The position numbers were made by a program, and so were the translations under genes. DNA of 64,000 nt from positions 682,001-746,000 of the forward strand of contig NZ_FLKP01000002.1 of assembly GCF_900087015.1 (NCBI RefSeq), written 5' to 3'. This document shows positions 1,830 through 35,436 of this stretch, piece by piece. How positions within the stretch are numbered: position 1 is the stretch's first letter; the number at the start of each line of letters is the position of its first letter. The stretch is from Christensenella timonensis. GTDB taxonomy: Bacteria; Bacillota; Clostridia; Christensenellales; Christensenellaceae. Under the pieces are notes generated by a model that searched no databases, had not been told where the DNA came from, and saw nothing but the letters and a program-made list of their open reading frames with translations.

Positions 1830-1833
1830 AGCG

Positions 1834-2661
1834 TTATACCTCCTTTAACTCATCAAGCGCGATGGCGAGTTCTTCTTTGCTGATGGCAACATTGTGGTTA
1901 TTTTTCCATTTTTTCTCCAAAAAGGATACGCCTTTTCCTTTCAGGGTATGCAGAAGGATCATCGACGGTTTCTCTGTGCTGCATTTGGCAAGTTCAACGG
2001 CGGCATCGATGGCCGCGACGTCATGGCCGTCCACTTCGTACACATCCCAACCAAAAGACCGCCACTTATCAGCCAGCGGGGACAGGCCGTTGACCTCTGA
2101 AATTTCCCCGTCAAGCTGCATTTTATTGTAATCGGTAAAGGCGATCAGGCGATTGAGTTTTTTGTGCGCGGCATACATGGCAGCTTCCCAGATGATGCCC
2201 TCGTCCGTTTCGCCGTCGCCGATGATCGTATAGATCGTCGCACGATCCTTTTTCAGTTGGGAACCGATGGCGATCCCTACGGCACAGGAAAAACCCTGCC
2301 CTAAGGAACCGGCGGTCATATCGACACCGGGCGTACGGTTCATGTCTGCATGGCTGGGGAGCAGCGTTTTCGGCTGGTTCAATGTTTCCAGCCACTGGAT
2401 ATCGAAAAAACCTTTGTTGGCGAGGACTGCATAGAGCGCCGGCCCCGCATGGCCCTTGGAAAGAACCAGCCTGTCGCGCCCCTCCATTTTGGGATGGGCC
2501 GGATCAATATTCATCTGCTTTTCATATAATACGACGAGGGCTTCCACGACGGACATGCTGCCCCCCAAATGGCCTACGCCCAGCCGGCCGATTTCCTCCA
2601 TGATCAGATAGCGTACCCTGCGGCAAATGTTATTGAATTGACTGACCTGCATTTTGTCCAT
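1834..2661 (-). CDS. transketolase N-terminal subunit
   Basis: A 275-residue thiamine-diphosphate-binding half of a split transketolase. Visible motifs are GHLGGSMSVVEAL near residue 30, LSKGHAGPALYA near 68, GSLGQGFSCAVG near 118, and the cofactor/Mg motif GDGETDEGIIWEA followed by DYNKMQLDG about 25 residues later. Length and motif order are normal for the family. SD GGAGG lies 9 bases before ATG. It lies between the creatininase-family gene (99 bases upstream) and the C-terminal subunit. It transfers a two-carbon ketol unit between sugar phosphates in the cytoplasm. Confidence 0.9.
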   Translation of the reverse strand: MDKMQVSQFNNICRRVRYLIMEEIGRLGVGHLGGSMSVVEALVVLYEKQMNIDPAHPKMEGRDRLVLSKGHAGPALYAVLANKGFFDIQWLETLNQPKTLLPSHADMNRTPGVDMTAGSLGQGFSCAVGIAIGSQLKKDRATIYTIIGDGETDEGIIWEAAMYAAHKKLNRLIAFTDYNKMQLDGEISEVNGLSPLADKWRSFGWDVYEVDGHDVAAIDAAVELAKCSTEKPSMILLHTLKGKGVSFLEKKWKNNHNVAISKEELAIALDELKEV

Positions 2662-2760
2662 GTTTATAAACCTCCCTGGAATCTGATTCGGTTACGCGGC
2701 GGCAAAGGCCGGGGCGTGTTAGGGGGCGGATACATCCACCCCCCTATACCATGACGTGCT

Positions 2761-3867
2761 TTATTTTTCAAAGATACCGATCTTGGGGAGCTCATGTACA
2801 GATTTCCAGCCCTCCGAAAGCGGCTCTTTTAAGCAGGCGTCGATGTCTTCCTGCTTGTGGTAACTGAACTTATCGCACGGCGGAACCTGTCCCGGAGGGA
2901 AGGCTTCCAGTATTTCGTCGATCATCAGCGTGATATATTTCAGGATCGCTGCGATTGGGCGCTTCGCCTTATCGGGTGTCCCCAGCGACGGCTTGCCCAC
3001 TACCCCTTCGGGTGTGCCGAACCGTTCGATCCAGTTGTGCCCTTCCGCTTCGCTCCAGCGGTGCGGACGGCCAAACGAATCCACCGACGTGTCGTAGTGC
3101 CCTTGCAGCATAAAACTCTTTGGCTGCGCATCCACGCATACCGACATATCCACCATCTCCGGGAACAGGAGGTTGGCGACTGCCGTTTCCGCTTCGTCAG
3201 CATGGATGAAGTGTGTCGACCAGCCGTGCTCCTTGTCCGACGGATAGAAAAATTCCCGTACGGCCCTGTGCCATTCCAAAATCGTGACGAACGCAGGCAA
3301 CTGGTATCTCTTGAAAAATTCCTGCACCGCCGATTCCAGCATCCACAGGTGCCCGTGATTGTTGACAAGGATCATTTTACGGTAGCCGTCGTCCCACAGC
3401 CCAAGCATCGTATAGATCAGGGTCTCGCGTACAACTTCTTCCGGCATGATCACCGTGCCCGGCATACCGATATGGTGATAGGGGTGCCCGCCAAAGTTCA
3501 AAGGAGTAAAAGTCATACCGACCTCGCGGCCCTGTTTGGCGGTATAGCGCCGCACGCCCTCGCAGATCTGCGTTACCATAAAGGTATCGAGTCCTGACGG
3601 ATTGTGGATACCGTGGTTTTCCGTACAGCCAATGGGGATCAAGATCACATCGTTCTTTTTACGCTTCTCGATCGTTTTATACCGCGGCGTATTCTGGATA
3701 TATGTGCCCGCCTTTCCCAGTTCCGGCGCGGACGGGATACCGTATTCTTCCAATATTTGGTCGATTTGCTCGTCCGTCGCTTCCCATACCTGTTTTTTGA
3801 GCCGACCTGTCGTTGTGTTCTCAAAGATCACATCCGGCCGTTCTGTGGTGAACCATTGCTGTTCCAT
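2761..3867 (-). CDS. iolN: creatininase-family hydrolase, probable 3-dehydro-scyllo-inosose hydrolase
   Basis: A 368-residue creatininase-superfamily metal hydrolase. Metal-ligand motifs are in family order: GCTENHG (E83, H85) with D94, NNHGH (H171) and HADEAET (E225). The protein is longer than creatininase itself (about 260 residues), with extra N- and C-terminal arms. From memory, this long form resembles the ring-opening hydrolase IolN of the Thermotoga-type inositol pathway, which cleaves 3-dehydro-scyllo-inosose to 5-dehydro-L-gluconate. An IolM-like dehydrogenase and an IolO-like epimerase about 12-14 kb away support this. The second in-frame ATG was chosen because it sits 8 bases after GGAGG; the upstream ATG (3873) is only 2 bases away. 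Function is inferred. Confidence 0.65.
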   Translation of the reverse strand: MEQQWFTTERPDVIFENTTTGRLKKQVWEATDEQIDQILEEYGIPSAPELGKAGTYIQNTPRYKTIEKRKKNDVILIPIGCTENHGIHNPSGLDTFMVTQICEGVRRYTAKQGREVGMTFTPLNFGGHPYHHIGMPGTVIMPEEVVRETLIYTMLGLWDDGYRKMILVNNHGHLWMLESAVQEFFKRYQLPAFVTILEWHRAVREFFYPSDKEHGWSTHFIHADEAETAVANLLFPEMVDMSVCVDAQPKSFMLQGHYDTSVDSFGRPHRWSEAEGHNWIERFGTPEGVVGKPSLGTPDKAKRPIAAILKYITLMIDEILEAFPPGQVPPCDKFSYHKQEDIDACLKEPLSEGWKSVHELPKIGIFEK

Positions 3868-3924
3868 TTCCATTTCCTCCTTGGATTAAATGATTTGTTT
3901 TGGTAAAGTACATTATCTGAAAAT

Positions 3925-4767
3925 TTAATTTGTGTAACAGAAAAATCCCCTGCCTGTTTTCCGGCCGAGCAGACCGCCGCGCACCATTTTTTTCAGCAAC
4001 GGATGGGGGCGGTATTTGCTGTCGCCCGTTTCCTGCTGCAATACTTCCATGATGGCCAGGCACACATCAAGGCCGATCAGATCACCCAGGGCCAGGGGCC
4101 CCATGGGATGGTTGGCGCCCAAACGCATGGCGGTATCGATATCTTCCGCGCAGGCCATTCCCTCTGCTAAAATACCGACCGCTTCGTTGACGAGGGGGAT
4201 CAGGATCCGGTTGACCACAAACCCCGCCCCCTCCTGTACGAGGATGGGGGTTTTACCGATCCCGGCAGCGGTACGGCGGACAAATTCCACCGCCCTTGGC
4301 TTTGTATTGATCCCTGCGATGACCTCCACGAGTTTCATGACAGGGGCAGGATTAAAAAAGTGCATTCCCACGATATCGTGCTGTAACCCTTGGGCGATCT
4401 GCGTAATGGAAAGGGAAGAGGTATTGGTGGCAAATACGGCATCCGGCCTGCAAATTTTATCGAGCTGGCCGAACAGGTTTTTTTTGATTTCCATCTCTTC
4501 GACCGCTGCCTCGATGACCAGGTTGCAATCCGCCATATCTTTGATCGTACCGGTGCAAATGGAAGCGCTCGCTTTGTCAGCCTGTGCCTGCGTCATTTTG
4601 GAACGGGCAACCATTTTGAGCAGGGCCTTCTGGATCTTCTCTTTTCCTTTTTGCGCAAGTTCGCTGCTGATATCGCCCAAAATGATCTGGTTTTCATTGG
4701 GAGAGGCGGCGAAAGTCTGCGCGATTCCCGCACCCATTGTCCCGGCGCCAATTACACCAATCTCCAT
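3925..4767 (-). CDS. hbd: 3-hydroxybutyryl-CoA dehydrogenase
   Basis: A 280-residue NAD(P)-dependent dehydrogenase interconverting acetoacetyl-CoA and 3-hydroxybutyryl-CoA. The N-terminal Rossmann motif is [11 protein letters not shown] (from about residue 6), the catalytic segment is [15 protein letters not shown], and the C-terminal dimerisation domain is complete ([20 protein letters not shown]). The start [12 protein letters not shown] was chosen because AGGAGG lies just before it; an upstream in-frame ATG (4803) would add 12 residues with no family resemblance. It lies 11 bases after crt and belongs to the thl-crt-hbd run. Confidence 0.95.
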
Positions 4768-21448: not shown

Positions 21449-21645
21449 TCCTTATACACGCTTGAATTTCCATAACAAATTATCAAAAAAGAAATCTGGT
21501 TTTTGCACATTTGAGCAGCGTTGTTCAAAAGGTGGTTTTTTTTGAAAAAATTGCATGGTAGTATGATAAAAACACCATAGAACAAAACATTATTTTTCAG
21601 ATCGGACAATTTACGCGTAATCAATTGAATACAAGGAGAAATGAG

Positions 21646-23193
21646 ATGCCCAAAAAATATGTGATCGGCGTAGATCTGGGGACGACAACGATCAAAGCGG
21701 TTTTTTTGGATACACGCAGCAACAGGATCGTTTCCACGCAGACGGAGGAGATCGTTCCGGCTAAGACCGAAAATGCGGAAGCCATAGAATATGACCCGAA
21801 GGATTGGCTGGCATATACGAAGCGGATATTGGCCCGCGGCTTTGAAGCAGGGATCGACCCGCGCGAGGTGGCGGGAATCTGCTTTGGCGGATGGACGGTG
21901 ATGTCTTTTCTGGTAAAAGAGGATGGAACGCCCGTGACCGATGCGGTGCACTACAACGACATGCGGCACTTGGAGCTTCTTAACGAAGCGGACAAGCGGT
22001 ACGGCAAACTGGCGGTGGAACGCAACGGAAACTATATCGGCATGTACAGCGCCTCGGTAAAGCAGTATTGGTGGAAAATAAAACGACCGGAAGTATTTGA
22101 AACGGCGGATTATGTGGCGACGGAGGTAAGCTATATGAACTTTATGCTTACGGGCCGGTGGGCGTTCAGCCGTGTGGAGGCAGGCTTTTACAGCCAATAC
22201 AATGCCTATACGCGGGAATGGGACGAGGAGATCATTGCTGCGATGGGGTTTGACAGGTCGATGTTTCCAAGGCTGGTGGACGCCTGGGAAGTAGTGGGCG
22301 AGGTGACGCAGGAAGGAGCGGCTTTAAGCGGCCTTGCGCCGGGAACCCTTGTCTTTGGCGGTGTGGACGACGCTTCCCCTGTGGCGCTTGCGACAGGCGC
22401 TTTCCAAAAGGGACAGGGATTTGTTTCGACAGGGTCGGCGGCCAATATCGCGGCAAACACGCAAGGGCCGGTTTCCCATCCGACGGCGATCACCTACCCG
22501 CACTGCGTCCCGGGGCTCACCATGACGATCACGGTCATGTCGTCGACGGGACTTAGCTATAAATGGATGCGCAATACCTTTGGGCAGTTGGAAGCGCAAA
22601 TGGCGCAAATGATGGGTACGGACGCATACGATTACCTGAACGGGCAGGCGAAAAAGGCGAAGCCGGGTGCAAACGGAGTCTTGTTCCTGCCGTATCTGGA
22701 CGGCGATTACACGCCCAACAACGATCCCGATGCGCGCGGGGTATTCCTCGGCATGGGAACGGATACGACCAAGGGAGATATGCTGCGCGCATCGCTCGAG
22801 GGGGTCGCGTTTTCCATGCGCGACAACATGGCGCTTATTCGTGAGATGGGCGGGGAGATCGACAAGATGGTGCTGACGGGCGGGATCGCCAGAAGCCCGC
22901 TGTGGCTGCAGATCATCGCGGATATCACGGGCTGTCCGGTATCCCTGCCCGAGGAAACGGAGGGTGCGCCTTTTGGCAGCGCCATCATCGCAGCGGTAGG
23001 CGCAGGGCTTTACCGGGATTTTGAACAGGGGGTTGAGCGGGCAGTGAGAATCAGGCGGGATGCGTTCATGCCTGATGAAAAGAACCGCATGCTCTATGAG
23101 GAATTGTACCAGGTGTACAAAAGTTTATATCCGGGTTTGAAAGGGGCGTTTGCCCGGATCGCGGATATAAAGGAAAAATATAATCAGGAGTAA
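21646..23193 (+). CDS. FGGY-family carbohydrate kinase
   Basis: A 515-residue sugar kinase. The N-terminal phosphate loop is IGVDLGTTTIKAVFLD; other blocks are GICFGGWTVMSFLVKEDG, GGVDDASPVALATGA, GQGFVSTGSAANIAA and, for adenosine binding, MVLTGGIARSPLWLQIIADITG with APFGSAIIAAVGAG. It phosphorylates a sugar or sugar alcohol with ATP; the group covers xylulose, ribulose, L-fuculose and erythritol kinases, and sequence alone does not decide. It heads an operon with a CUT2 transporter, so its substrate is probably the imported sugar or its ketose. ATG 21646 lies 9 bases after AAGGAG. Confidence 0.9.
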   Translation: MPKKYVIGVDLGTTTIKAVFLDTRSNRIVSTQTEEIVPAKTENAEAIEYDPKDWLAYTKRILARGFEAGIDPREVAGICFGGWTVMSFLVKEDGTPVTDAVHYNDMRHLELLNEADKRYGKLAVERNGNYIGMYSASVKQYWWKIKRPEVFETADYVATEVSYMNFMLTGRWAFSRVEAGFYSQYNAYTREWDEEIIAAMGFDRSMFPRLVDAWEVVGEVTQEGAALSGLAPGTLVFGGVDDASPVALATGAFQKGQGFVSTGSAANIAANTQGPVSHPTAITYPHCVPGLTMTITVMSSTGLSYKWMRNTFGQLEAQMAQMMGTDAYDYLNGQAKKAKPGANGVLFLPYLDGDYTPNNDPDARGVFLGMGTDTTKGDMLRASLEGVAFSMRDNMALIREMGGEIDKMVLTGGIARSPLWLQIIADITGCPVSLPEETEGAPFGSAIIAAVGAGLYRDFEQGVERAVRIRRDAFMPDEKNRMLYEELYQVYKSLYPGLKGAFARIADIKEKYNQE

Positions 23194-23205: not shown

Positions 23206-24255
23206 ATGAAAAAATTATCGATGGTTTTGGCAGTGGTGCTGGTAGCGGTATTGATGTTTACGGCGTGCACACCGGTGGATCAGCCGGCACAGAGCGCGTC
23301 TGCACAGGCGACGCAGGAAGATGCGCCGGCGGATGAAAGCGCTGCTGCGGACGAATCGGCCGCGCCGGTTGCGGCAGGAGAATTCAAAAAGCTCGGGCTG
23401 GTACACAATATGCAATCGTGGCAGATGTATCAGGTCATGGAAAAAGCGATCAAGGCAAAATGCGACGCGGCAGGCGTGGAGCTGGTGGTCGCGGATGCAA
23501 ACGGCGATGCCAACAAGCAGCTGCAGTTGATCGAAACGATGATGAACTCCGGCGTGAACGGTATCATCGTGGTCACGGTCGACGGCCCGACACTGGAAGA
23601 TGTTGCGAAGCGTTGTACGGAAAACGGCGTGGCGCTGGTGTCGATGTACATCGAACTGGAAAACGCAACGGCGAACGTATTGGTGGATGAATACGAGTAC
23701 GGCTATGCGATCGGAAAACTGGGCGCGCAGTATATGGCGGAGAATTTCCCGGATGAGGAACTGGAGGTAGCGCTACTGAGGATACACGATTACCTGCCGG
23801 GCATCGAACGCGGACGCGGTATGGAAGATGCGGTCAAGGAATACTATCCCACGGCAACGATCGTAAACGACCAGAACTCTGTCGACGTAGAATCGGCGAT
23901 GAAGATGACGGAAGCGATTTTGGCAGGCAATCCGAACACAAGGATGTTCCTGGCGGATTCTGACGATACGGGTGCGATCGGCGCTTATGAGGTGCTGAAA
24001 GCAAAAGTGAAGCCCGAAGACCAGGCGAAATACTGTGTGGTTGGCGCGGACGGCGTACCGCAGGCGTTTGGATATATCCTGGAGGACGGGATGTACCGCG
24101 GTACGGTTGCGCTCGATAACCAAGAGATCGGCAATACGGCATTCCAGATCTGTGCGGATGCACTTGCCGGAAAAGATTTCGAGAAGGTACAATATTGCGC
24201 TTTTGAAGAAGTGACAAAAGAAAACGCGGCAGAGTACCTGAAACAGTACGAATAG
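23206..24255 (+). CDS. sugar-binding lipoprotein (transporter 3)
   Basis: A 349-residue RbsB-like lipoprotein: lipobox FTAC (Cys21), then a long Ala/Ser/Glu/Asp-rich linker to about residue 60. The binding domain starts FKKLGLVHNMQSWQMYQVMEKAIK and holds MMNSGVNGIIVVTVDGPTLEDVAKRC, FLADSDDTGAIGAYEVLKA and VVGADGVPQAFGYILEDGMYRGTVALDN. It starts 12 bases after the kinase stop with GAGGAGG as SD. A GC-rich stem-loop follows it. Confidence 0.92.
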   Translation: MKKLSMVLAVVLVAVLMFTACTPVDQPAQSASAQATQEDAPADESAAADESAAPVAAGEFKKLGLVHNMQSWQMYQVMEKAIKAKCDAAGVELVVADANGDANKQLQLIETMMNSGVNGIIVVTVDGPTLEDVAKRCTENGVALVSMYIELENATANVLVDEYEYGYAIGKLGAQYMAENFPDEELEVALLRIHDYLPGIERGRGMEDAVKEYYPTATIVNDQNSVDVESAMKMTEAILAGNPNTRMFLADSDDTGAIGAYEVLKAKVKPEDQAKYCVVGADGVPQAFGYILEDGMYRGTVALDNQEIGNTAFQICADALAGKDFEKVQYCAFEEVTKENAAEYLKQYE

Positions 24256-24270
24256 GATATTGTCCCATGC

Positions 24271-24296
24271 GGGGAGGGAATAACGGCTCCCTCCCC
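24271..24296 (+). other. 9-bp GC-rich stem-loop after the binding-protein gene
   Basis: GGGGAGGGA pairs perfectly with TCCCTCCCC around an 8-base loop. No U-tract follows. It occupies the same place as the stems after the other two binding-protein genes. Confidence 0.65.
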
Positions 24297-24368
24297 ATGC
24301 ATGGAATTCGTGTATTGGACTTGCGGGCAATTACATAACCATATTGCCGGAAAGGGCCGGAGGCAACT

Positions 24369-25862
24369 ATGCAGGATAATATATTGGAAATGAAAGGGAT
24401 CACCAAGCTGTACCCCGGGGTGGTCGCGCTGGAGGAAGTGGACTTCACCCTCAAAAAAGGCGAGGTACACGCGTTGATCGGCGAGAACGGCGCAGGCAAA
24501 TCGACGCTGATTAAAATACTGGCGGGCGCTGTCAAACGGGACGGCGGGTCGATCGTATTTGACGGGCAGGAATATAAAAATTATACGCCCCATGAGGCCA
24601 TGGATATGGGCATCAGCGTTATTTACCAGGAATTCAACCTGGTGCCCATGATGTCGATCGAGGAAAATTTATTTTTTGGGAAAGAGGTTAAAAAGGGGAT
24701 CTTTTCCGACAAGGCAGAGATGGTCAAGCGTTCCAAAGAAATATTCAAGCAACTGAATATGGATGTCGATCCCGCGACGCCGGTCAGGGAATTAAGCGTC
24801 GCATACCAACAACTGACGGAGATCGCAAAGGCAATTTTAAACAAAGCAAAAATCATTGTGATGGACGAACCGTCCGCAACGCTTACAAACCGTGAGCTGA
24901 AAGCGCTATTTGAACTGATCAGGAGACTGAAGAAGGAAGGCACGGCAATCGTTTACATTTCCCATAGATTGGAAGAGATTTTTGAGATCGCGGACACGGT
25001 GACGGTTTTCAGGGATGGGCAATACATCGACACCAAGCCGGTCAGCGAGATGAACAAGGAAATGCTGATCCGCATGATGGTCGGGCGTGAGCTGACGGGG
25101 ACATATCCGTGCAACCATACTGTTTACGACGATGTTGTGATGGAGGTAAAAGACCTTTACAACGAGCATGTGAAGGGCGCGAGTTTTTCGCTGCGAAAAG
25201 GAGAGATCCTGGGGATCACCGGGCTTGTGGGCGCGGGACGCACAGAGCTTGTGCGCATGATATTCGGTGCGGACAGCTACCTCGGCGATATCTATATCAA
25301 AGGGAAAAAAGCGAAAATCAAATCGCCTACGGACGCGATCCGTTATGGGATATCCCTGCTGCCGGAAGACCGGAAATCGCAGGGGCTGCTGCTCAATATG
25401 GGCATTGACTTCAACCTTTCGATGATCGTATTAAAATCACTTGCCAAAAATGGTTTTATTTCCAGCGATGAGGAAAAAAAGATCGTCGGCGAATATATCA
25501 AAATGATCTCCATCAAAACGCCTTCAAGCAAGCAGCTTGTGCGCAACTTGTCAGGCGGCAACCAACAAAAGGTGGTGCTTGCCAAATGGATGGCGGCAAA
25601 GTCGGATATCATCATTATCGACGAACCGACGCGCGGCATAGACGTAGGGGCAAAGTCGGAGATATATGAACTGATGGACAGGCTGGCCGCGCAGGGGAAA
25701 AGCATTATTATGATCAGCTCGGAGCTGCCTGAATTGATCGGTATGAGCGACCGGGCCATCGTCATGCACGAAGGGGAGATCGTGGGCGAGGTCGCGCGCA
25801 CGGAACTTAATCAGGAAAGGCTTTTGACTATGGCATCATCAAAAAAAGGAGAACTGGCATGA
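24369..25862 (+). CDS. CUT2 sugar ABC transporter ATPase (transporter 3)
   Basis: A 497-residue double-ATPase: Walker [10 protein letters not shown], first signature altered to [14 protein letters not shown], Walker B IIVMDEPSATLTN; second half [30 protein letters not shown] and [14 protein letters not shown]. RbsA type. The stop codon overlaps the permease start as ATGA, so the two are translationally coupled. It energises import of the sugar presumably phosphorylated by the FGGY kinase. Confidence 0.94.
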   Translation: MQDNILEMKGITKLYPGVVALEEVDFTLKKGEVHALIGENGAGKSTLIKILAGAVKRDGGSIVFDGQEYKNYTPHEAMDMGISVIYQEFNLVPMMSIEENLFFGKEVKKGIFSDKAEMVKRSKEIFKQLNMDVDPATPVRELSVAYQQLTEIAKAILNKAKIIVMDEPSATLTNRELKALFELIRRLKKEGTAIVYISHRLEEIFEIADTVTVFRDGQYIDTKPVSEMNKEMLIRMMVGRELTGTYPCNHTVYDDVVMEVKDLYNEHVKGASFSLRKGEILGITGLVGAGRTELVRMIFGADSYLGDIYIKGKKAKIKSPTDAIRYGISLLPEDRKSQGLLLNMGIDFNLSMIVLKSLAKNGFISSDEEKKIVGEYIKMISIKTPSSKQLVRNLSGGNQQKVVLAKWMAAKSDIIIIDEPTRGIDVGAKSEIYELMDRLAAQGKSIIMISSELPELIGMSDRAIVMHEGEIVGEVARTELNQERLLTMASSKKGELA

Positions 25863-26881
25863 AGAGTAAGTTATCGGCAGGGGAATTTTTCAAAAAGTTT
25901 GGTATCGTGATCGTGCTTGTGGCGTTATTCATCGTATTTGCGCTGTTGAATCCGCTTTTTATGGATCCGGGCAATATCATGGAGCTGCTGAAGCAAGTGG
26001 CGTTCATGGGTATTATCGCGGTGGGCATGACGTTTTGTATGCTTACGGGAGGGATCGACCTTTCAGTGGGCTCTAATATGGCGCTTGCTATCGTAGTGGC
26101 AGCGCTCGTAATGGCGCAGGTACCGTTTAATACGCAGGAGGCGAACGCGATCCTCGGTTCGTTGGTAGGGATCGGCGCTGCGACAGCGATAGGATTTGCA
26201 AACGGCTTCTTCGTAAATGAGATCAAAATACCGCCGCTTATCGTTACGCTGGCGATGATGCAGATCGTACGCGGCCTTGTATATATCTTTACGGGGGCGG
26301 TTCCGGTATATGAGAACATACCGGAGGTATTCAGCTTTGTGGGACAGGGCAGCGTTGGCCCGGTTCCGTTCCCGGTCATCGTGATGGGCGCGGTATTCGT
26401 GATCGGCGGCATTATCTTACACAAAACGGTCTATGGACGGCACGTCTATTGCGTGGGCGGCAATGAAGAGGTCGCGCGCCTTTCTGGCATCCATGTGAAA
26501 AAAGTAAAGTATTCCGTGTATATGATCAGCGGATTGCTTACGGGCGTCGCTGGGATCCTGCTGTTCTCGCGCATGAATTCCGGCCAGCCGCGCGCGGGTC
26601 TCGGTTACGAATTTGAAGTGGTGACGGCTTGCGTATTGGGAGGCATCTCCATGGCGGGCGGCTCCGGGAAGCTATGGGGCGTGTTCTTTGGCGTGGTTAT
26701 CATGGGGGTTCTTTCGTATGGATTGGTGTCCGTCGGGCTCAATGAGTTCTGGCAGATGTTCATCAAGGGCGTAGTGCTGCTGGTCGCCGTCGGTATCGAT
26801 TCGATGTCGCAGGCCAAGCAGCAGAACTTAGTGGAGCTGCGCCGCGAGGAAGAGGAACGCAAAAAGGAAGCGGCGGCGTAA
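25859..26881 (+). CDS. CUT2 sugar ABC transporter permease (transporter 3)
   Basis: A 340-residue RbsC-like permease with multiple membrane segments and hallmarks CMLTGGIDLSVGSNMALAIV, YCVGGNEEVARLSGIHVKKVKY and GGISMAGGSGKLWGVFFGVVIMGVL. The C-terminus carries a charged cytoplasmic tail (ELRREEEERKKEAAA), longer than usual. It overlaps the ATPase gene by 4 bases and is followed after 10 bases by lpdA. Confidence 0.94.
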   Translation: MKSKLSAGEFFKKFGIVIVLVALFIVFALLNPLFMDPGNIMELLKQVAFMGIIAVGMTFCMLTGGIDLSVGSNMALAIVVAALVMAQVPFNTQEANAILGSLVGIGAATAIGFANGFFVNEIKIPPLIVTLAMMQIVRGLVYIFTGAVPVYENIPEVFSFVGQGSVGPVPFPVIVMGAVFVIGGIILHKTVYGRHVYCVGGNEEVARLSGIHVKKVKYSVYMISGLLTGVAGILLFSRMNSGQPRAGLGYEFEVVTACVLGGISMAGGSGKLWGVFFGVVIMGVLSYGLVSVGLNEFWQMFIKGVVLLVAVGIDSMSQAKQQNLVELRREEEERKKEAAA

Positions 26882-26891
26882 AGGAGAGAGT

Positions 26892-28277
26892 ATGGATATT
26901 TTAGTGATCGGCGGCGGCCCGGGCGGATATGTGGCGGCGATCGCCGCGGCAAAGCGGGGTGCGAAGGTGACGCTGGTGGAAAAGGATATGCTGGGCGGCA
27001 CGTGCCTGAACCGGGGATGTATCCCCACCAAGGCGATCCTGCATAGCGCAAAACTTTTTCATGAGGCGAAAAGCTTTGCGGAACTGGGTATTGTGACCTC
27101 TGAGCCGCAAGTCGATTATGCGGCGGTCGTACGGCGTAAGGAAGGGATCGTAAAGCAGTTGCGCGGCGGTGTGGAGTTTTTGCTCGGCAAGGCCGGCGCG
27201 GAAGTCATAAAGGGCGGGGCGCGGTTTTTATCACGTGACAAAGTGGCGGTAAAAACAGCGGAAGGCGAGATAGGGCTCGAGGCAAAAAACGTTATCATCG
27301 CGACGGGCAGCGTGCCCTGCAATCTGCCGTTTTTGGAGGCGGACGGCAAAAATATCATCAATTCCGACCATGCGCTTGCGCTGTGTGAGTTACCCAAAAG
27401 CATGGTGGTCATTGGCGGGGGCGTGATCGGCTGTGAGTTCGCGCAGGCATTTGCACGGCTGGGCGTTACGGTCACGATATTGGAGGCGCTCGGCAGCTTA
27501 GTGGCGACGATGGACGGAGACCTGTCCGCATTGATGACGCGCGTACTCAAAAAGGACGGCGTGGACATCCACCTTTCGTGCAGGGTACAGGGCGCACAGG
27601 ACACGGGAGCGGGCGTATGCGTGACATACACAGAGAGCGACGGCACACAAAAAAGTGTGACGGCTGACAAGGTGCTGGTTGCGGCAGGACGGCGCGCAGT
27701 GGCGGACGGCCTTGATGCACACGAAGCGGGCGTCGCTATGGATGAGCGCGGCAATATCCCCGTCGATGGGGGATGCCGCACGAATGTCAGCGGGATCTAT
27801 GCGATCGGCGATGTGACGGGCGGTATACAGCTTGCGCATGTGGCCTCACATCAAGCGGAGATCGCTGTTGGCAACCTGTTTGGAGACAAGCTGGAAATGG
27901 ATGAACGGATCGTTCCATATTGTATTTACACGAGTCCTGAAATGGCGGCGATGGGATATACCGAGCAAAAGGCCTCGGAAGCGGGATATACTGTTAAAAC
28001 AGGGATGTTTGCGGCTTCTGCCAACGGACGCTCTATGATCGAAGGGATGCGCGACGGGTTTTCCAAGGCGGTGCTGGACGCAGGCGATGGTACGGTGTTG
28101 GGGATACACCTGGCAGGGCCGAACGTGACGGAGATGGTCTCGCCGTTTGCGGGCGTGATTAAGTTCGAGGCGACGGGAGAGGACGTAGCACAGATGATTT
28201 TTGCACATCCGACCGTATCTGAGTTTATCCGCGAAAGCATCCTGGACGCCGATAAAAAGGCGATCCATAAAGTATAA
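26892..28277 (+). CDS. lpdA: dihydrolipoyl dehydrogenase (E3)
   Basis: A 461-residue flavoprotein disulfide reductase. FAD motif GGGPGGY (7-13), redox disulfide in GGTCLNRGCIPTKA (Cys38, Cys43), NAD motif VVIGGGVIGCEFAQ, second FAD segment YAIGDVTGGIQLAHVASHQ, and the C-terminal HPTVSE active-site His-Glu pair. It has no N-terminal lipoyl domain. It reoxidises the lipoyl group of a 2-oxoacid or acetoin dehydrogenase complex; the matching E1/E2 genes lie 3-6 kb downstream (31430-34587) behind their own promoter. SD AAGGAGAG. Confidence 0.93.
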   Translation: MDILVIGGGPGGYVAAIAAAKRGAKVTLVEKDMLGGTCLNRGCIPTKAILHSAKLFHEAKSFAELGIVTSEPQVDYAAVVRRKEGIVKQLRGGVEFLLGKAGAEVIKGGARFLSRDKVAVKTAEGEIGLEAKNVIIATGSVPCNLPFLEADGKNIINSDHALALCELPKSMVVIGGGVIGCEFAQAFARLGVTVTILEALGSLVATMDGDLSALMTRVLKKDGVDIHLSCRVQGAQDTGAGVCVTYTESDGTQKSVTADKVLVAAGRRAVADGLDAHEAGVAMDERGNIPVDGGCRTNVSGIYAIGDVTGGIQLAHVASHQAEIAVGNLFGDKLEMDERIVPYCIYTSPEMAAMGYTEQKASEAGYTVKTGMFAASANGRSMIEGMRDGFSKAVLDAGDGTVLGIHLAGPNVTEMVSPFAGVIKFEATGEDVAQMIFAHPTVSEFIRESILDADKKAIHKV

Positions 28278-28297
28278 GTATTCAGGAGGAAAAATTG

Positions 28298-28594
28298 ATG
28301 GCACAGAAATATCCGGTGAAGATAACGGTGTACAGGAAATTTGACTGCGACGAGCTGCCTGATTACAGCGGCGGCTGTCATGCGTTTGACGTGGGGGCGG
28401 CGTTCACGGTCAAGGTAGACGGCAAAATGCCGGAAGGGTTTTGTACATGGGCATGGCACGATCTGTGGCCGGTGGTCATGACGCTGCGTTTTGGCGGAGA
28501 GATGACGTACTGTAAGCAGGGAAACATGATGTATTCCGCCTGCTCGGACGGGCTTTCGCCTGTGGTATTCAAACTGGAAAGAATAGAAGCATAA
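28298..28594 (+). CDS. TIGR04076-family protein
   Basis: A 98-residue protein matching the small TIGR04076 family: a start of the KYPVKITVYRK type, internal GCHAFDVGAAFTV, then FCTWAWHDLWPVVMTLRFGG and a Cys-containing end YSACSDGLSPVVFKLERI. Four cysteines (in FDCDE, GGCHAF, GFCTWA and YCKQ) plus one in SACSDG could bind a metal; no function is established. It lies between lpdA and the aldolase-like gene with close spacing, so it is part of the sugar operon. ATG 28298 lies 8 bases after AGGAGG. Confidence 0.75.
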   Translation: MAQKYPVKITVYRKFDCDELPDYSGGCHAFDVGAAFTVKVDGKMPEGFCTWAWHDLWPVVMTLRFGGEMTYCKQGNMMYSACSDGLSPVVFKLERIEA

Positions 28595-28628: not shown

Positions 28629-29294
28629 ATGGCAATGTTGAGGGAGTTGAGGGAAAGAGTTTTGGAAGCGGGCAAAAGGCTGCGCGCATACGACCTGATC
28701 GTTATGGCGGGGGGCACCGTGGCGGCACGCGACCCGGAGACGGATTTGTGCGTGATCACACCGAGCGGGATGGAATATGAAGACCTGCGCTGGGACGACA
28801 TGTGTGTGATCGATATCAAGACCTATGAGTTGGTGGATGGATACCGCCGGCCGTCCTGCGCATGCGATATGTTTACGAAGGTGCTGCGGGAGCGCCCGGA
28901 TATCCTGTGCGTCACACATTCGCATTCCCGTTATGCAACGGCGTACGCCGTGTGCAACAGGGAAATCCCGGTTGTGACGACGACGCACGGCAACCTGGTC
29001 GGGGGCGCGGTGCCCTGCACGCACTGGGTGCATCCCGACCCGCACAATGAAGAATATTTACAGGATATCGTGGATACGATGGGCAAAGGATATGCCGTCA
29101 ATATCCGCAACCACGGCCTCGTGGTGGGCGGGCCGACGGTGGAAGAAGCGATCGAAAACATCATTACCTGCGAGGTATCGGCGCAGATCGCATTTATCGC
29201 GGAACAACTGGGGAATCCCTATTACCTGAATGAAGACGAAGCGGACAGGGCGCACAAGTTTGCAAAATCAGTCGTGGGGCAGCACATCAAATAG
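28629..29294 (+). CDS. class II aldolase/adducin-domain protein with altered active site
   Basis: A 221-residue protein of the FucA/AraD fold. Zinc ligands are kept: H97 and H99 in THSHSRYATAYA and H162 in RNHGLVVGG. The position of the catalytic Glu/Asp of FucA and AraD (the PSSE or PSSD motif) reads PSCA (75-78), and the usual GN(V/I)S phosphate-binding motif reads GGTVAA. The AraD Asp in the THADYFYG-like segment is replaced (THGNLVGG). It is therefore probably neither a standard fuculose-phosphate aldolase nor a ribulose-phosphate 4-epimerase; it may act as a decarboxylase, dehydratase or other metal-dependent lyase on a non-standard substrate. SD AAAGGAG. Confidence 0.82.
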   Translation: MAMLRELRERVLEAGKRLRAYDLIVMAGGTVAARDPETDLCVITPSGMEYEDLRWDDMCVIDIKTYELVDGYRRPSCACDMFTKVLRERPDILCVTHSHSRYATAYAVCNREIPVVTTTHGNLVGGAVPCTHWVHPDPHNEEYLQDIVDTMGKGYAVNIRNHGLVVGGPTVEEAIENIITCEVSAQIAFIAEQLGNPYYLNEDEADRAHKFAKSVVGQHIK

Positions 29295-29345: not shown

Positions 29346-30293
29346 ATGAGGTATCAAAAACTGGGAAACAGCGGGATCGATGTTTCGGTCATTGCACACG
29401 GTACATGGGCAATGGGAAATGACTTTTTTGGCGAGGTGGATCAAGGCCGCGCGATCAGCGCGATCCATGCTTCGGTGGAGCATGGCGTGAACCTGGTGGA
29501 CACGGCGCGTGCATACGGCGAGGATTGCGCTGCGGAAAAAGTAGTCGGCAAGGCGATCCAGGGCATGCGCGATAAGGTGGTGCTTGCGACCAAGGCCGGC
29601 GTGCTGCGCGCGTATGGCGGCAATTATGTCAAGTGCTCCGACCCGAACGTCATACGCTGCGAGCTGGAAGAATCCCTGCGGAACCTAAAGACGGATTATA
29701 TCGACTTATACCAGATACACTGGCCGGATCACAATACCCCGCTGGAGGTGGCGCTGGAAACGATGCTGCGCTTTAAGGAGGAAGGCAAGATCCGCGCGAT
29801 CGGGGTATCGAACTTCTCTGTCGCGGAACTGCGGTTGGCGGTCGATGTGGCGGATATCGCGAGCGTACAGCCGCCATTAAGCCTTTTAAACCGACAGTCG
29901 TTTGAGGACGGCGTACTCGGCTTTTGTGCGGAAAACGGACTCGGCGTGCTCACGTACGGGTCGCTCGGAGGCGGTATATTGTCCGGTAAAATGGGCAAAA
30001 TCGGCATCGGCGGAAAAGAGTTGAGGGCGTCCTTTTACCCTTACTATGAAGAACCGATGTGGTCGAAATGCCAGCAGCTTTTAAAAACGTTGAAAGAAAT
30101 CGCTGACGCGCGGAACGTTTCTATCGCGCAGGTATCCATCAACTGGGTCCTCTGCCAAAAGGGCGTCACGTGTGCGCTATTGGGTGCGACGAGGCCGCAG
30201 ACAGCGATCGAGAACACAAAAGCCGCAGACTGGGAATTGACAAAAGAAGAGCTTGACGTGATCAATACCGCCTATGGCAGGATCATGGGATGA
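29346..30293 (+). CDS. aldo/keto reductase
   Basis: A 315-residue (beta/alpha)8 NADPH-dependent oxidoreductase. The catalytic tetrad is complete: D52 and Y57 in VDTARAYGE, K83 in LATKAG, H125 in YQIHWPDH. The C-terminal cofactor segment is CALLGATRPQTAIENTKAADWEL. It resembles the YajO/IolS-like general-reductase branch. It may interconvert a sugar aldehyde or ketone with its alcohol in this operon. SD ACGGAGG. The gene ends 48 bases before the SorC-type regulator. Confidence 0.9.
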   Translation: MRYQKLGNSGIDVSVIAHGTWAMGNDFFGEVDQGRAISAIHASVEHGVNLVDTARAYGEDCAAEKVVGKAIQGMRDKVVLATKAGVLRAYGGNYVKCSDPNVIRCELEESLRNLKTDYIDLYQIHWPDHNTPLEVALETMLRFKEEGKIRAIGVSNFSVAELRLAVDVADIASVQPPLSLLNRQSFEDGVLGFCAENGLGVLTYGSLGGGILSGKMGKIGIGGKELRASFYPYYEEPMWSKCQQLLKTLKEIADARNVSIAQVSINWVLCQKGVTCALLGATRPQTAIENTKAADWELTKEELDVINTAYGRIMG

Positions 30294-30341: not shown

Positions 30342-31322
30342 ATGAAATTTGACGAAACGCGGGAAACGTATGGAAAAATCGCAACGCTTTACTATATGGG
30401 GGAATTATCGCAGGACGAGATCGCGCAGATATTCAACATTTCCCGTTTTAAGGTGTCGCGTGTCTTAAAGCGCTGCAAGGAGCTCAATATCATAGAATTC
30501 CGCGTCAACAACAAGCCGCATTATTACAAGAGCATGGAAGCCCAGGTCATCAAGGGACTGGATATCAAAAAATGCATCATCGTGAATCCGGGGACGACGG
30601 CGCTCGAATCCAAGACGAACGTGGGAAAAGCGGGCGCAAAATACTTAGCGGAACGCTTAAAGGACGGCATGCTGGTTGGCCTTGACTGGGGCACGACCTT
30701 GCAGACGATGGTGCGGGAATTTTCACCCGAGCAGCAATACCATGACAGCCTGTTTGTGCAGATTTCAGGCAGTACGGCGTCACAGTCTGTTTCCGACAGC
30801 TGGTATATGGATGGGCACGACATCGTCAAAAGCCTTGCAACGAAGGCGGGGGCGCAGTGGTCGCTGTTTCCCGTACCATATATTGTAAAGGATAAAGTGC
30901 TGCGCGACATGCTGCTGGAAGAAAAAACGATCAAAAGCCATATCGATTATTTCAAAAAGCTGGACATCGCATTTTTCGGCCTCAGCTCATGCCAGCCGGA
31001 GGTATATATCCCTTTTTATAAAAATTACCTTTCTGCAAAAGAGTGCAATCTTTTGAGAAAACAAGAGCGTTTTGGCGAAGTGTTCAGCTGCCTGCTCGAT
31101 GAACGGGGCAACGCAATCGATTCCATTTTAAAGGATCGCGTCATGACCATTGAACCGGAGCTTTTGAAAGCCGTTCCTGAAACGGTGGCGCTGGCAGCGG
31201 GCAAGGATAAGGTGAAGTCCATTGTCGCCGCGGCGCGGGGCGGATATTTTACGACCATGATTACGACAGAAGTCGTGGCGCTGTCCGTTCTGGAATTGCT
31301 CGAACGAGAACAGGAAAAATAA
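30342..31322 (+). CDS. SorC/DeoR-type sugar-binding transcriptional regulator
   Basis: A 326-residue regulator: an N-terminal HTH (IATLYYMGELSQDEIAQIFNISRFKVSRVLKRC, about residues 12-45) and a SorC-type sugar-binding domain (GLDWGTTLQTMVREF; VQISGSTASQ; DIAFFGLSSCQPE; C-terminal VKSIVAAARGGYFTTMITTEVVALSVLELLE). Members bind phosphorylated sugars. It is the last gene of the kinase operon, and directly downstream are a 20-base perfect palindrome and the promoter of the E1/E2 operon, its most likely target. Confidence 0.9.
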   Translation: MKFDETRETYGKIATLYYMGELSQDEIAQIFNISRFKVSRVLKRCKELNIIEFRVNNKPHYYKSMEAQVIKGLDIKKCIIVNPGTTALESKTNVGKAGAKYLAERLKDGMLVGLDWGTTLQTMVREFSPEQQYHDSLFVQISGSTASQSVSDSWYMDGHDIVKSLATKAGAQWSLFPVPYIVKDKVLRDMLLEEKTIKSHIDYFKKLDIAFFGLSSCQPEVYIPFYKNYLSAKECNLLRKQERFGEVFSCLLDERGNAIDSILKDRVMTIEPELLKAVPETVALAAGKDKVKSIVAAARGGYFTTMITTEVVALSVLELLEREQEK

Positions 31323-31429: not shown

Positions 31430-32392
31430 ATGCAGCTTTCCAAGGAACAAAAATTAACGGTTTATGAGACGATGCTGCTCATAAGAGAAACTGAACTGAA
31501 GATGATCGAGCTTTATAAAAAGGGCGAGATCGAAGGGCATATGCTGCCTTGCCTGGGGCAGGAGGCGATCCCGGCAACGCTGGCGCAGGTCTATACGGAT
31601 AAGGACTACCTGGTCACAGGGCACCGCGGCGGCGGACATTACTTTGCACGCGGCTGCGACTATCATGCATTCTGGGGCGAGATGTTCGGGCGTATAACGG
31701 GGGCGACGCGCGGGCGCGGCGGACAGATACACCTGATGGATATCAGCAAAAAAGCGCTGACAGGCAATGCGATCGTAGGCGCGCAGTGGGGGATCGCAGC
31801 GGGAGCGGGCTTTGTAGCCAAACGCGATGGAGCTATGTGCGTATGCGTTGGCGGCGAAGGATCGACCAACCGTGGAACGTTCCACGAAAGCCTGAACCTG
31901 GCGGCGGTGCAGTGCCTGCCGGTGCTGTATGTCGTTGAGTTCAACAACCGCCAGATGTGGAACGACTGCACGCAGACAACGGCAGTCGACCGTATCGCAA
32001 AACGGGCGATGGCCTATGACATCGAGGGGGCGACGGTAGACGGAAACGACCCGGACGCAATTTTTGCAAAGGCTTCCGAATTTGCCGCAAAGATCCGCGC
32101 AGGCGGAAGGCCGTGCCTGCTTGAGTGCGTGACCAATAAGTGGACGGACAGTGTGAATAGCGCGCGCAATACACCGGAAGCGATCGAAGGCTTCAAGCAG
32201 CCGGACGTTGACGCGATCTACCGGTACGAAACGAAGCTCAAAGAACAGGGCGTCCTGACGGACGGGCTTGATGCGCAGATCAAGGAACGCGTCCATAAGA
32301 AAGTGATGGATGGCGTGGAATTTGGCAGGAACAGTGAAAAGCCTGAGGTTACAGAAGGTATGGACCAGGTTTACAGCCAGCCGGTTGTGTGA
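31430..32392 (+). CDS. thiamine-diphosphate-dependent dehydrogenase E1, alpha subunit (acetoin dehydrogenase-like)
   Basis: A 320-residue E1alpha of the acetoin/pyruvate dehydrogenase type: HRGGGHYFARG, GRITGATRGRGGQIHLMD, GNAIVGAQWGIAAGAGFVAK and GTFHESLNLAAVQCLPVLYVVEFNN. The cofactor motif, normally GDG-X(24-27)-NN, reads GEG (142-144) with NN at 172-173, so the Mg-binding Asp is Glu. The rest fits acoA. It pairs with the E1beta encoded 13 bases downstream. Known relatives cleave acetoin to acetyl-CoA plus acetaldehyde; here, in a sugar operon, the substrate may differ. The ATG follows AGGAGG; an upstream in-frame start (31328) is non-homologous. Confidence 0.88.
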   Translation: MQLSKEQKLTVYETMLLIRETELKMIELYKKGEIEGHMLPCLGQEAIPATLAQVYTDKDYLVTGHRGGGHYFARGCDYHAFWGEMFGRITGATRGRGGQIHLMDISKKALTGNAIVGAQWGIAAGAGFVAKRDGAMCVCVGGEGSTNRGTFHESLNLAAVQCLPVLYVVEFNNRQMWNDCTQTTAVDRIAKRAMAYDIEGATVDGNDPDAIFAKASEFAAKIRAGGRPCLLECVTNKWTDSVNSARNTPEAIEGFKQPDVDAIYRYETKLKEQGVLTDGLDAQIKERVHKKVMDGVEFGRNSEKPEVTEGMDQVYSQPVV

Positions 32393-32405: not shown

Positions 32406-33380
32406 ATGAAAACAATGAGATTTATTGAAGCCCTGCGCGAAGGGCTGGCAGAAGAAATGAGAAGGGATCCGGATGTGTTCCAGATCGGTGAATCGCTTGG
32501 CCGGGAACAGGGCGGGATGTTCAAGGTGACGGATGGGCTGGACAAGGAATTCCCGGGCCGCGTGATCGATTCTCCCATTTCGGAGGCGGCGCTCGGCGGT
32601 GTGGCCGTGGGCGCGGGGATGTTCGGTATGCGCCCGGTGGTAGAGATCATGTTCGGCTCTTTGATGCCGTTACTTTTGGATGAGATACATAACCAGGCGG
32701 GTACGCTGCATTATGTGTCGGGAGGAAAAATCAATTGTTCGATGGTCGTGCGTACGTGTAACTGGATGCGTATTGTATCCGGGCCGCACCACTGCGGGAA
32801 TTTTGATGCGATGTTCGTCAATTCGCCGGGCGTCAAGGTCGTTGTGCCGTCTACCCCTTACGATGTGAAAGGACTGATCAAGGCTTCCATCCGCGACAAC
32901 GATCCTGTCGTATTTATGGAATATTCGCCTTTATACCAGGTAAAAGGTGAGGTGCCGGAGGAAGAATATGTACTGCCCATCGGCAAGGCGGACGTAAAAC
33001 GCGAGGGTACGGACGTTTCCATCATCACGTACGGCGTCGGCGTGCACGATGCGCTTGCGGCGGCGGCAGAGGCGGAGAAATCCGGTATCAGTGTGGAAGT
33101 CGTCGACTTGCGTACGATCCTCCCCTACGATAAGGAAGCGATCCGCAAATCGGTCGCCAAAACGGGCCGCGCGATCGTTTCGTATGAAGGCTTCAAGACA
33201 GGCGGCGCAGGCGCTGAATTCGCGGCGTTCATTGCGGAGGAATGTATCGAAGATTTATCGGCGCCTGTATTGCGTGTGGCGTGTAAAGATGTTCCCAATC
33301 CCTCCAATTCCCGCCTGATCGAAGGCTTGAGCGTGGGGAAAAAGGATGTGCTGGACGCTGTTTTCAAAGTGATGGAATAA
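32406..33380 (+). CDS. thiamine-diphosphate-dependent dehydrogenase E1, beta subunit (acetoin dehydrogenase-like)
   Basis: A 324-residue E1beta: IGESLGREQGGMFKVTDGL, IDSPISEAALGGVAVGAGMFGMRPV (with the Glu that activates the cofactor), VVPSTPYDVKGLIKASIRDNDPVVFMEYSPLY, then the C-terminal domain VVDLRTILPYDKEAI. The usual AGPQHS loop reads SGPHHCGN. It forms an alpha2beta2 tetramer with E1alpha. The ATG follows GGAGG; a frame-extending upstream start inside E1alpha was rejected. Confidence 0.9.
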   Translation: MKTMRFIEALREGLAEEMRRDPDVFQIGESLGREQGGMFKVTDGLDKEFPGRVIDSPISEAALGGVAVGAGMFGMRPVVEIMFGSLMPLLLDEIHNQAGTLHYVSGGKINCSMVVRTCNWMRIVSGPHHCGNFDAMFVNSPGVKVVVPSTPYDVKGLIKASIRDNDPVVFMEYSPLYQVKGEVPEEEYVLPIGKADVKREGTDVSIITYGVGVHDALAAAAEAEKSGISVEVVDLRTILPYDKEAIRKSVAKTGRAIVSYEGFKTGGAGAEFAAFIAEECIEDLSAPVLRVACKDVPNPSNSRLIEGLSVGKKDVLDAVFKVME

Positions 33381-33393: not shown

Positions 33394-34587
33394 TTGGCAG
33401 AATTTATCGTTTTATCCAAAATGACGCTTACGATGGAAGAAGGCACGCTCGCCAAATGGCTGGTCAAAGAAGGCGATACGGTCAAAGTGGATGATCCGCT
33501 CTGTTCGGTGGAGAATGAAAAAGAGACGGAGGATATGCTTTCCATCTATGAAGGTGTGATACTCAAGCTGATCGCAGAGGAGGGGGAAGCTTACCCGGTC
33601 AATACGCCTATCGCGGTGGTCGGACAGGCGGGAGAGGACATTACCGGCCTGCTGGCAGAGCTTGGGAGCAAGGAGAAAGAGGAAGCGGAGGCGACTGCCG
33701 CCGTGCGGCAGGTGGTTGCGCCAGCAAAAAGCGTACAGGGCAAGATGATGCCCAAGATACGCAAGCTGATCCAGCAGAAGGGCATCGACGCCGACGAGCT
33801 TGCGCGTTTTTGCGGGGGCCGCAAGATCACGGAAGAGGAAATCGAAGCGTTTGAACAGAGCAAGCAGGGCGGCGCACCGGCGGCGATCGAAATCGAAGCA
33901 AACGACCGTATCGCCAAGGCTTCGGCAATGCGTAAAACGGTCGCCAAAAACATGGTGGAAAGTTGCGAGCACACGGCGCGTTTGACCAATTTTATGGAAG
34001 TGGATATGACCGCGGCATTCGACCTGATGAAAAAGCTGAAGGGCGAGGGCAAGCGGATATCCGTGACGGCGCTCATCATCAAAGCGGCGGCATATGCTTT
34101 AAAAGAGTATGAGATCGTAAATTCATCGTACATTGAAAGCAGCGGAGAGATCGTATATCGCGGGGATGTCAATATTTCGTGCGCGGTGGATTTGCCGGAG
34201 GGGCTTGCTGTCCCGGTCGTGATGCATGCGGACGAGCGCGATGTGTTCGATATCACAGGCGACATCGATTTGTTTGCGCAAAAGGGTAAAGAAGGCAGGA
34301 TCACCAACGACGAGATGAAGAAGGGGACGTTTACCGTTTCTAACATCGGAATGCTCGACGTGCTGATTTTTACGCCCATCATAAATTATCCGCAAACGGC
34401 GATCCTGGGCGTGGGAGCGGTGCGCGTACTGCCGCGGTATACGGACGAAACGTGCACGGTGATCGAGCCGCGTAAGATCATGCAGATCGCCGTCACGTAT
34501 GACCATAGGGTGATCGACGGCGCGCCGGCGGGACATTTCCTGCGCAGTGTACGGACGCTGCTTGAGGCGCCGGAAAAATTGGTGTGA
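33394..34587 (+). CDS. dihydrolipoamide acyltransferase (E2)
   Basis: A 397-residue E2 with a TTG start 8 bases after AGGAG. Domains: one lipoyl domain (1-80) with the lipoylated lysine at K43 in VENEKETED; a linker; a peripheral subunit-binding domain (about 110-145, MPKIRKLIQQKGIDADELAR); and the catalytic acyltransferase domain with HRVIDGAPA (His371, Asp375). It transfers the acyl group from E1 to CoA and forms the core of the complex. It follows E1beta directly and is probably reoxidised by the upstream lpdA product. Confidence 0.92.
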   Translation: MAEFIVLSKMTLTMEEGTLAKWLVKEGDTVKVDDPLCSVENEKETEDMLSIYEGVILKLIAEEGEAYPVNTPIAVVGQAGEDITGLLAELGSKEKEEAEATAAVRQVVAPAKSVQGKMMPKIRKLIQQKGIDADELARFCGGRKITEEEIEAFEQSKQGGAPAAIEIEANDRIAKASAMRKTVAKNMVESCEHTARLTNFMEVDMTAAFDLMKKLKGEGKRISVTALIIKAAAYALKEYEIVNSSYIESSGEIVYRGDVNISCAVDLPEGLAVPVVMHADERDVFDITGDIDLFAQKGKEGRITNDEMKKGTFTVSNIGMLDVLIFTPIINYPQTAILGVGAVRVLPRYTDETCTVIEPRKIMQIAVTYDHRVIDGAPAGHFLRSVRTLLEAPEKLV

Positions 34588-34596: not shown

Positions 34597-35436
34597 ATGC
34601 GTAAGAAGTTAAAAGACTTGCCCTTTGGACTTTATGAAAAATCGGTATGCACTGCGTGGAGCTGGGAGGACAAGTTTGCGCTGGCGCGCGAAGCGGGATA
34701 CGATTATTTTGAGATCGCCATCGACGCGACGCCGGAGAAGTTAGACAGGCTGCAAAACAAAGAGGAGCAGCTGAAAATCCGCCGGGCTTCCGAGCAAAAA
34801 AATATGCCTCTTTATACCTTTGCCTTTACGGCAAACCGCTTTTATCCGCTGGGCAGCGAGGATGGGCAGGTGCGCAGCGAGGGCGTACGGCTGCTGAAAA
34901 GCGCGATGGATTTTGCGGCCTTTATCGGGGCGAGGGTGATCCAGTTCGCCAGCTATGACGAATACGAAAAACCGCGCAACATGATGACCGAGGGATATTT
35001 TGTGCAGTCCCTGGAGGAATGTGTGGAACACGCGGCGCGCCGGGGAACGGTGCTGGCGCTGGAGACGATGGACAGTGATTTTATGGATACCACGCAAAAG
35101 GCTATGCGCTATGTACGCATGTTTGACACGTGCTATCTGGGGCTGGACGTCGACCCGGGAAACATCGCCGCGATGGGTAATAACCCGGTGAGCGACATGG
35201 CGTTCGGCGCACGGCATATTGCGGAGGTCGAATGGAAGGACGTGGTGTACGGCGATGTGCGCAACACGTTTTTCGGCGAAGGGATCGTGGATTTTGACGC
35301 CTGTTTCAAGGCTTTGCACGACATTGGTTACCAGGGCTTTATGGCGGCGGAAATGTGGGCAAACGACGACCCGTCCACCCATCACAGGATATTTGAAGCG
35401 ATTTCATTTTTAAAGGACAAAATGAAGGATTATTGA
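34597..35436 (+). CDS. UlaE-like sugar phosphate 3-epimerase
   Basis: A 279-residue TIM-barrel protein. The start LPFGLYEKSVCTAWSWEDKFALAREAGYDYFEIAIDATPEKLDRL closely follows the L-xylulose-5-phosphate 3-epimerases UlaE/SgaU. Metal-ligand segments include EIAID, ALETMDSDF, LGLDVDPGNIAA and FMAAEMW. It interconverts ketopentose (or hexulose) phosphates at C3. It starts 9 bases after E2 and closes that operon. With the FGGY kinase it suggests an L-ketopentose phosphate intermediate, though no clear UlaF/AraD epimerase is present. Confidence 0.8.
   Translation: MRKKLKDLPFGLYEKSVCTAWSWEDKFALAREAGYDYFEIAIDATPEKLDRLQNKEEQLKIRRASEQKNMPLYTFAFTANRFYPLGSEDGQVRSEGVRLLKSAMDFAAFIGARVIQFASYDEYEKPRNMMTEGYFVQSLEECVEHAARRGTVLALETMDSDFMDTTQKAMRYVRMFDTCYLGLDVDPGNIAAMGNNPVSDMAFGARHIAEVEWKDVVYGDVRNTFFGEGIVDFDACFKALHDIGYQGFMAAEMWANDDPSTHHRIFEAISFLKDKMKDY

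Follow-up and report, generated by a model that had tools for sequence, protein, structure and literature searches.

An E1alpha clade with glutamate at the GDG metal-ligand position, encoded among sugar genes in Christensenella timonensis and two other bacteria

Introduction

Among the closest described systems to the locus studied here are the alpha2beta2 E1 components of human and Geobacillus pyruvate dehydrogenase (PDH). In human E1, Mg is ligated by Asp167, Asn196 and Tyr198 of the alpha chain, and the cofactor thiamine diphosphate (ThDP) is activated by Glu59 (PMC6168537). This computational study also reports hydrogen bonds from His63 and His263 to pyruvate. For the Geobacillus enzyme, PMC2663715 proposes that His271alpha helps in acetyl transfer to the lipoyl domain; a dual catalytic role is proposed for H128beta, and mutants of this residue are described. 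We infer that Geobacillus His271alpha corresponds to human His263.

Here we analyse a 64,000-nucleotide stretch of Christensenella timonensis DNA (hereafter the window), in which an earlier note had pointed to an E1alpha reading GEG in place of GDG. Human residue numbering was transferred through the phmmer alignment with human PDH E1alpha (1ni4).

Results

Glutamate at the metal-ligand position of E1alpha

The E1alpha gene carries AGGAGG just 5' of its ATG. The gene and the sites discussed below are:

31430..32392, plus strand: E1alpha with GEG, 320 aa (translation; PF00676, Dehydrogenase E1 component, 160.1 bits against a cut-off of 22)
31856..31858, plus strand: codon GAA for Glu143, at the place of the Mg-ligand Asp, human Asp167 (alignment to human E1alpha)
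31943..31945, plus strand: codon AAC for Asn172, at the place of the ligand Asn196, with Phe171 before it replacing Asn195 (alignment)
32138..32170, plus strand: residues 237-247, KWTDSVNSARN, in place of the family R-x-x-G-H loop and the subsequent YR (alignment; pLDDT below 50 at 239-247)

Translation of 31430-32392 gives GEG at residues 142-144, as had been noticed, and NN at 172-173. In the phmmer alignment, E143 falls on the Asp of the human GDG, and F171 and N172 take the places of the first and second Asn of ENN, respectively. The earlier note had also described the NN pair as kept at family spacing. This is true of the ligand itself: N172 lies 29 residues past E143, and the metal-ligand Asn (human Asn196) is kept at this spacing in 3/3 clade members and 82/82 other sequences. 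The pair, however, is shifted by one, and the residue preceding the ligand Asn is Phe or Tyr in the clade, where the family has Asn.

Two orthologues were found: one in a Clostridiaceae metagenome-assembled genome (MAG; genome G768, locus L039; 67% identical) and one in a Eubacteriales MAG (genome G103, loci L036/L038/L040; 58%). In a quick tree, these and the window's protein form one clade with an SH-aLRT of 100; it is known from three sequences, two of them out of metagenome-assembled genomes. The GDG Asp is absent from the clade as a metal ligand. Whether Glu is constant among close homologues, the check proposed earlier, can be answered from the aligned genes: Glu is fixed at this position in all three members, each time with the codon GAA, and the third member (G103) reads GEA rather than GEG. 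Among 82 other aligned E1alpha sequences, the same column holds Asp in 81 and Glu in one.

A clade-wide change of the E1alpha pocket

The comparison comprises 85 aligned sequences, the three clade members and the 82 others. Of 97 phmmer hits, these are the distinct E1alpha cores that span at least about 220 residues. Having been collected by similarity to the query or to PF00676, mostly within the window's class and phylum, they form a biased sample. In the 82 others, 64 columns are at least 85% conserved, and 22 of these 64 differ in all three clade members. The His63 equivalent (His in 80/82 others) is Leu or Ile in 3/3 members, and the His263 equivalent (His in 82/82) is Ser or Thr in 3/3. 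Arg259, present in all 82, has become Lys. The equivalents of His92 (conserved in 77/82), Asn195 (76/82) and Tyr198 (77/82) are likewise replaced, and that of Arg90 is kept. At residues 236-247 the family loop Y-R-x-x-G-H has been rebuilt as N/A/S-K-W-x-D-S/T. Of the conserved columns, four of the six that hold contact residues named in PMC6168537 are changed, against 18 of the remaining 58, an enrichment that is not significant (one-sided Fisher p of about 0.10).

The GDG change is thus one part of a clade-wide pocket change, broader than the earlier note describes. The suggestion that it may tune cofactor binding or substrate range gains from the fixation of Glu and from the loss of His63 and His263 alongside it. 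The genome G103, which holds one of the orthologues, also encodes a second E1alpha with GEG (CFFGEGASNEG; L049, on contig G103:C129; 278 residues as found). This protein keeps the His63 and His263 equivalents, ENN and YRWSGH, and has Leu at the His92 position. Its pocket is mostly ordinary; Glu is therefore found apart from most of the other changes, and by itself need not mean new chemistry. In the quick tree this protein branches outside the clade of three, from the same unresolved fork and with a long terminal branch, so that a shared origin of Glu in L049 and the clade is possible.

An AlphaFold model of E1alpha, built from a five-row alignment, has a mean pLDDT of 76.7 and a pTM of 0.81, with pLDDT below 50 at 91-109, 176-186, 239-247 and 308-320. 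The model is a monomer, and cofactor geometry lies beyond its reach. By Foldseek and VIA-align its best matches are PDH and BCKDH E1alpha, with a TM of about 0.83, Z up to 33.8 and an rmsd of 2.7 over 312 residues.

Partner components and family models

The remaining components of the complex are encoded nearby:

26892..28277, plus strand: E3, dihydrolipoyl dehydrogenase (TIGR01350, 527.2 bits against a cut-off of 408.8)
32406..33380, plus strand: E1beta, with Glu60 and His129 kept and the loop SGPHHC at 125-130 (alignment)
33394..34587, plus strand: E2 with lipoyl lysine (ENEKE) and HRVIDG motif (motifs, comparison of loci)

Aligned to Geobacillus E1beta, the catalytic Glu60 and His129 (Glu59beta and His128beta) are present in 3/3 clade members and 87/87 others. 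To this extent E1beta is intact, as had been supposed; nevertheless, 15 of its 77 well-conserved columns differ in all three members. Among the changed columns are the Phe85 equivalent, which is Leu, and most positions of the SGPHHC loop, whose His is retained. This loop, correctly read earlier as standing in for AGPQHS, is identical in all three clade E1beta. E2 keeps its lipoyl lysine in all three loci, and its acyltransferase motif is HRVIDG in two of them and HRVVNG in L038 (10323-11498). E3 keeps the redox motif CLNRGC.

The top-scoring model for E1alpha is a PDH model, TIGR03182, at 228 bits against an equivalog cut-off of 393.85, and the PDH model TIGR03181 gives 162.7 against 411.35. 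E1beta falls narrowly under the cut-off of the PDH E1beta subfamily (NF006667, 307.2 against 321), and E2 scores far below the acetoin dehydrogenase model (NF011457, 60.4 against 307 bits). It had been anticipated that homologues with Glu might prove to be ordinary acetoin dehydrogenases. By name models alone this is not borne out, as no listed PDH or acetoin model passes for E1alpha, E1beta or E2, that of E1beta being a near miss.

Distribution and constraint

The clade is rare in the genomes searched. These were 18 genomes of the window's family, 396 of its order, 391 of its class and 398 of its phylum, together with five of G103's family, 33 of G768's order and 391 of G768's class; the samples overlap, and most were taken from larger groups. 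At E below 1e-100 nothing matched apart from the window itself, G103 and G768. No close relative turned up in the family's other 17 genomes, where the best non-self match is 38% identical (E 2.4e-55), and the class search added one weaker match at 37%. In the phylum search, 24 sequences from 23 other genomes reached E 1e-70 or better, and all 24 read GDG. A contig scan returned four loci, two of them the orthologues; it can have missed members, because only two short peptide patterns were used. No match was obtained in a viral scan. Among 72,556 plasmid records, 30 match at E 1e-40, and the best 20 of these 30 are at most 37.9% identical. A literature search, largely of journals outside subscription, returned no paper on a GEG-type or sugar-linked E1 among the matches listed.

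Across the clade, dN/dS is 0.080 and 0.082 in the two pairs with a finite value, dS being at or near saturation in all pairs. A decaying gene is ruled out by the open frames and the low dN/dS. The clade stem measures 1.66 changes per column for E1alpha and 0.755 for E1beta, lengths that come from trees with different rows and are not strictly like for like, because the E1alpha tree (84 of the 85 rows) still includes 11 fused E1 proteins. For E1beta, three split transketolases were removed from 93 rows, and the tree was built from 73 rows after 17 fused proteins had also been dropped.

An operon with sugar genes

The E1 genes of the clade sit with sugar genes. In the window these are, together with their neighbours:

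21625..23193, plus strand: FGGY sugar kinase (best model XylB, 293 bits, below the cut-off of 380.25)
23206..26881, plus strand: sugar ABC transporter, with binding protein, ATPase and permease (assigned by inspection of the translations: binding protein, RbsA-like, RbsC-like; binding-protein model below cut-off)
28295..28594, plus strand: TIGR04076 family protein, beside E3 in the window and in L038 (6340-6639)
28629..29294, plus strand: class II aldolase / AraD-like protein
29346..30293, plus strand: aldo-keto reductase
30342..31322, plus strand: SorC/DeoR-type sugar-binding regulator
34597..35436, plus strand: UlaE-like sugar-phosphate epimerase (NF009689, 229.5 bits against a cut-off of 200)

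Counting the window as one of three loci, SorC, E1alpha, E1beta and E2 are present at 3/3. The AraD-like protein, epimerase and kinase are present at 2/3, as are E3 and the TIGR04076 protein, of which a second copy lies elsewhere in the window's genome. Beyond the common genes, the window has the sugar ABC transporter and the aldo-keto reductase; a close counterpart of the latter is absent from the L039 and L038 loci. Kinase, epimerase and AraD-like protein have no match in the 12,979-base contig of L038, which is perhaps cut: it stops shortly past SorC. G768, the genome of L039, gave a single match to the operon E3 at E 1e-60 or better; it shares 39% identity and sits on the contig that carries a fused E1. 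A search for TIGR04076 in this genome gave no match.

The family names of SorC, kinase and epimerase suggest phosphorylated sugar intermediates; of the three, only the epimerase passes its cut-off. The AraD-like protein, 82% identical between the window (28629-29294) and L039 (9117-9773), keeps the metal His when aligned to E. coli AraD and reads PSCA for PSSD and TTHGN for TTHAD. It lacks the equivalents of E. coli Asp76 and Asp120, and on this alignment is probably not an ordinary L-ribulose-5-phosphate 4-epimerase. Because of these missing residues, the sugar route may be unusual.

Several other genes were seen around the three loci. Adjoining the operon in L039 (4692-7851) is a glycyl radical enzyme of PFL2/glycerol-dehydratase type, below every listed cut-off, with an activase that passes TIGR02494. 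Near the operon in L038 lie a nickel-pincer-cofactor isomerase of group 22 (3241-4512; 512.4 bits, above the cut-off of 400) and a fuconolactonase-like protein that falls short of its cut-off (2373-3197). The minus strand of the window at 885-3873 holds a split transketolase pair, by our own reading, and a gene resembling that of the 3-dehydro-scyllo-inosose hydrolase IolN (300.4 bits, above the cut-off of 245).

Discussion

The account that we favour, to which we give roughly an even chance, is that the protein serves as E1 in a dedicated, sugar-regulated complex resembling the 2-oxoacid dehydrogenases: a working enzyme, probably ThDP-dependent, with changed metal ligation and a changed substrate. 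Here, the ThDP metal would be held by Glu143, by Asn172 and by main-chain atoms around residue 174, and Glu60 of E1beta would activate the cofactor. The donor would be a carbonyl compound derived from an imported, phosphorylated sugar. Pyruvate and acetoin are probably not the donor, since both histidines with which human E1alpha binds pyruvate have been exchanged. The acyl unit would then pass to the lipoyl arm of E2 and on to CoA, and E3 would hand the electrons back to NAD. That the pocket is changed alike in three bacteria suggests that the enzyme acts on something other than the usual acids. Several observations weigh against this account: the mostly ordinary pocket of L049 despite its GEG, the non-significant enrichment of changes at known contacts, the small number of sequences, the E3 and TIGR04076 results in G768, the sugar genes missing from the L038 contig, HRVVNG in the L038 E2, and the near miss of E1beta to a PDH model.

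Alternatively, the complex may be an ordinary pyruvate- or acetoin-type dehydrogenase that tolerates a near-neutral exchange of Asp for Glu and retains the usual substrate and mechanism. L049 speaks for this reading, as its GEG goes along with ENN, YRxxGH and the equivalents of both His63 and His263 (though with Leu for His92), and so do the top-scoring PDH model of E1alpha, the near miss of E1beta, the predicted likeness to PDH and BCKDH E1alpha, and the intact E1beta catalytic residues, E2 lipoyl lysine and E3. We nevertheless consider it unlikely. The equivalents of His63, His92 and His263 and the YRxxGH loop are changed in 3/3 members, E1alpha and E2 stay well below the PDH and acetoin cut-offs, and the genome already has three other E1alpha, all with GDG and YRxxGH. 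The changes can also be taken further, to mean that the E1alpha half-site is no longer functional with ThDP, and that E1 is inactive or structural or the lipoyl arm is loaded by other chemistry. The altered equivalents of Asp167, His63, His263, Asn195 and Arg259 (to Lys) would fit such a loss, as would the long E1alpha stem, bearing in mind the different rows of the two trees. Against it stand the kept Arg90 and Asn196 equivalents, Glu60 and His129 of E1beta, purifying constraint across the clade, and the retained lipoyl lysine and CLNRGC motif; this, too, is an improbable explanation. A sequencing or assembly error at one codon is ruled out: three genomes, whose proteins are 58-67% identical to that of the window, agree on the same GAA codon within a common altered context, and the chance of an error is negligible.

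A further reading is conceivable, although we regard it as rather doubtful. A ThDP-dependent E1 complex with a Glu metal ligand, and with the usual E1alpha histidines absent, might convert a ketose phosphate or aldehyde derived from the sugar straight into an acyl-CoA. If true, such a complex would be an oxidative, CoA-linked counterpart of transketolase or phosphoketolase.

As the GDG Asp is almost constant in E1alpha (81 of the 82 others in this sample), the clade offers a natural test of the limits of the ThDP site in this enzyme class. It has fixed Glu and altered the surrounding pocket, yet E1beta keeps its catalytic residues and the E2 and E3 components are retained. The clade also points to an unassigned sugar route that would supply acyl-CoA.

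The three other E1alpha of the same genome (L001, L002 and L003), which we take to be acetoin-dehydrogenase-like, belong to the same E1alpha family and are 30-33% identical to the window's protein. They keep GDG and YRxxGH, with ENN in L001 and L002 and INN in L003. L049 has the Glu for the Mg-ligand Asp in common with the clade but, unlike the clade, keeps the His63 and His263 equivalents, ENN and YRWSGH. As for the setting among sugar genes, the plasmid pCC511_1 of Rhizobium sophoriradicis (L110) offers a parallel, with an annotated sugar-binding regulator, a sugar ABC transporter and a class II fructose-bisphosphate aldolase beside E1alpha-E1beta-E2-E3. In contrast to the clade, its E1alpha is ordinary (GDG, ENN, YRYRGH), and a kinase or AraD-like gene is unannotated in the stretch shown. 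Around a second rhizobial match, in Aminobacter (L111), the annotation lists neither a sugar transporter nor a sugar-binding regulator.

Compared with the human and Geobacillus PDH E1, the clade has the same predicted fold, the same catalytic Glu and His in E1beta, the ligand Asn at +29 and the gene set E1alpha-E1beta-E2-E3. It differs in its Glu for the Mg-ligand Asp, in the loss of the His63 and His263 equivalents and in the rebuilt loop at 236-247, and the window's E1alpha, about 28-30% identical to human E1alpha, stays below the NCBIfam PDH cut-offs.
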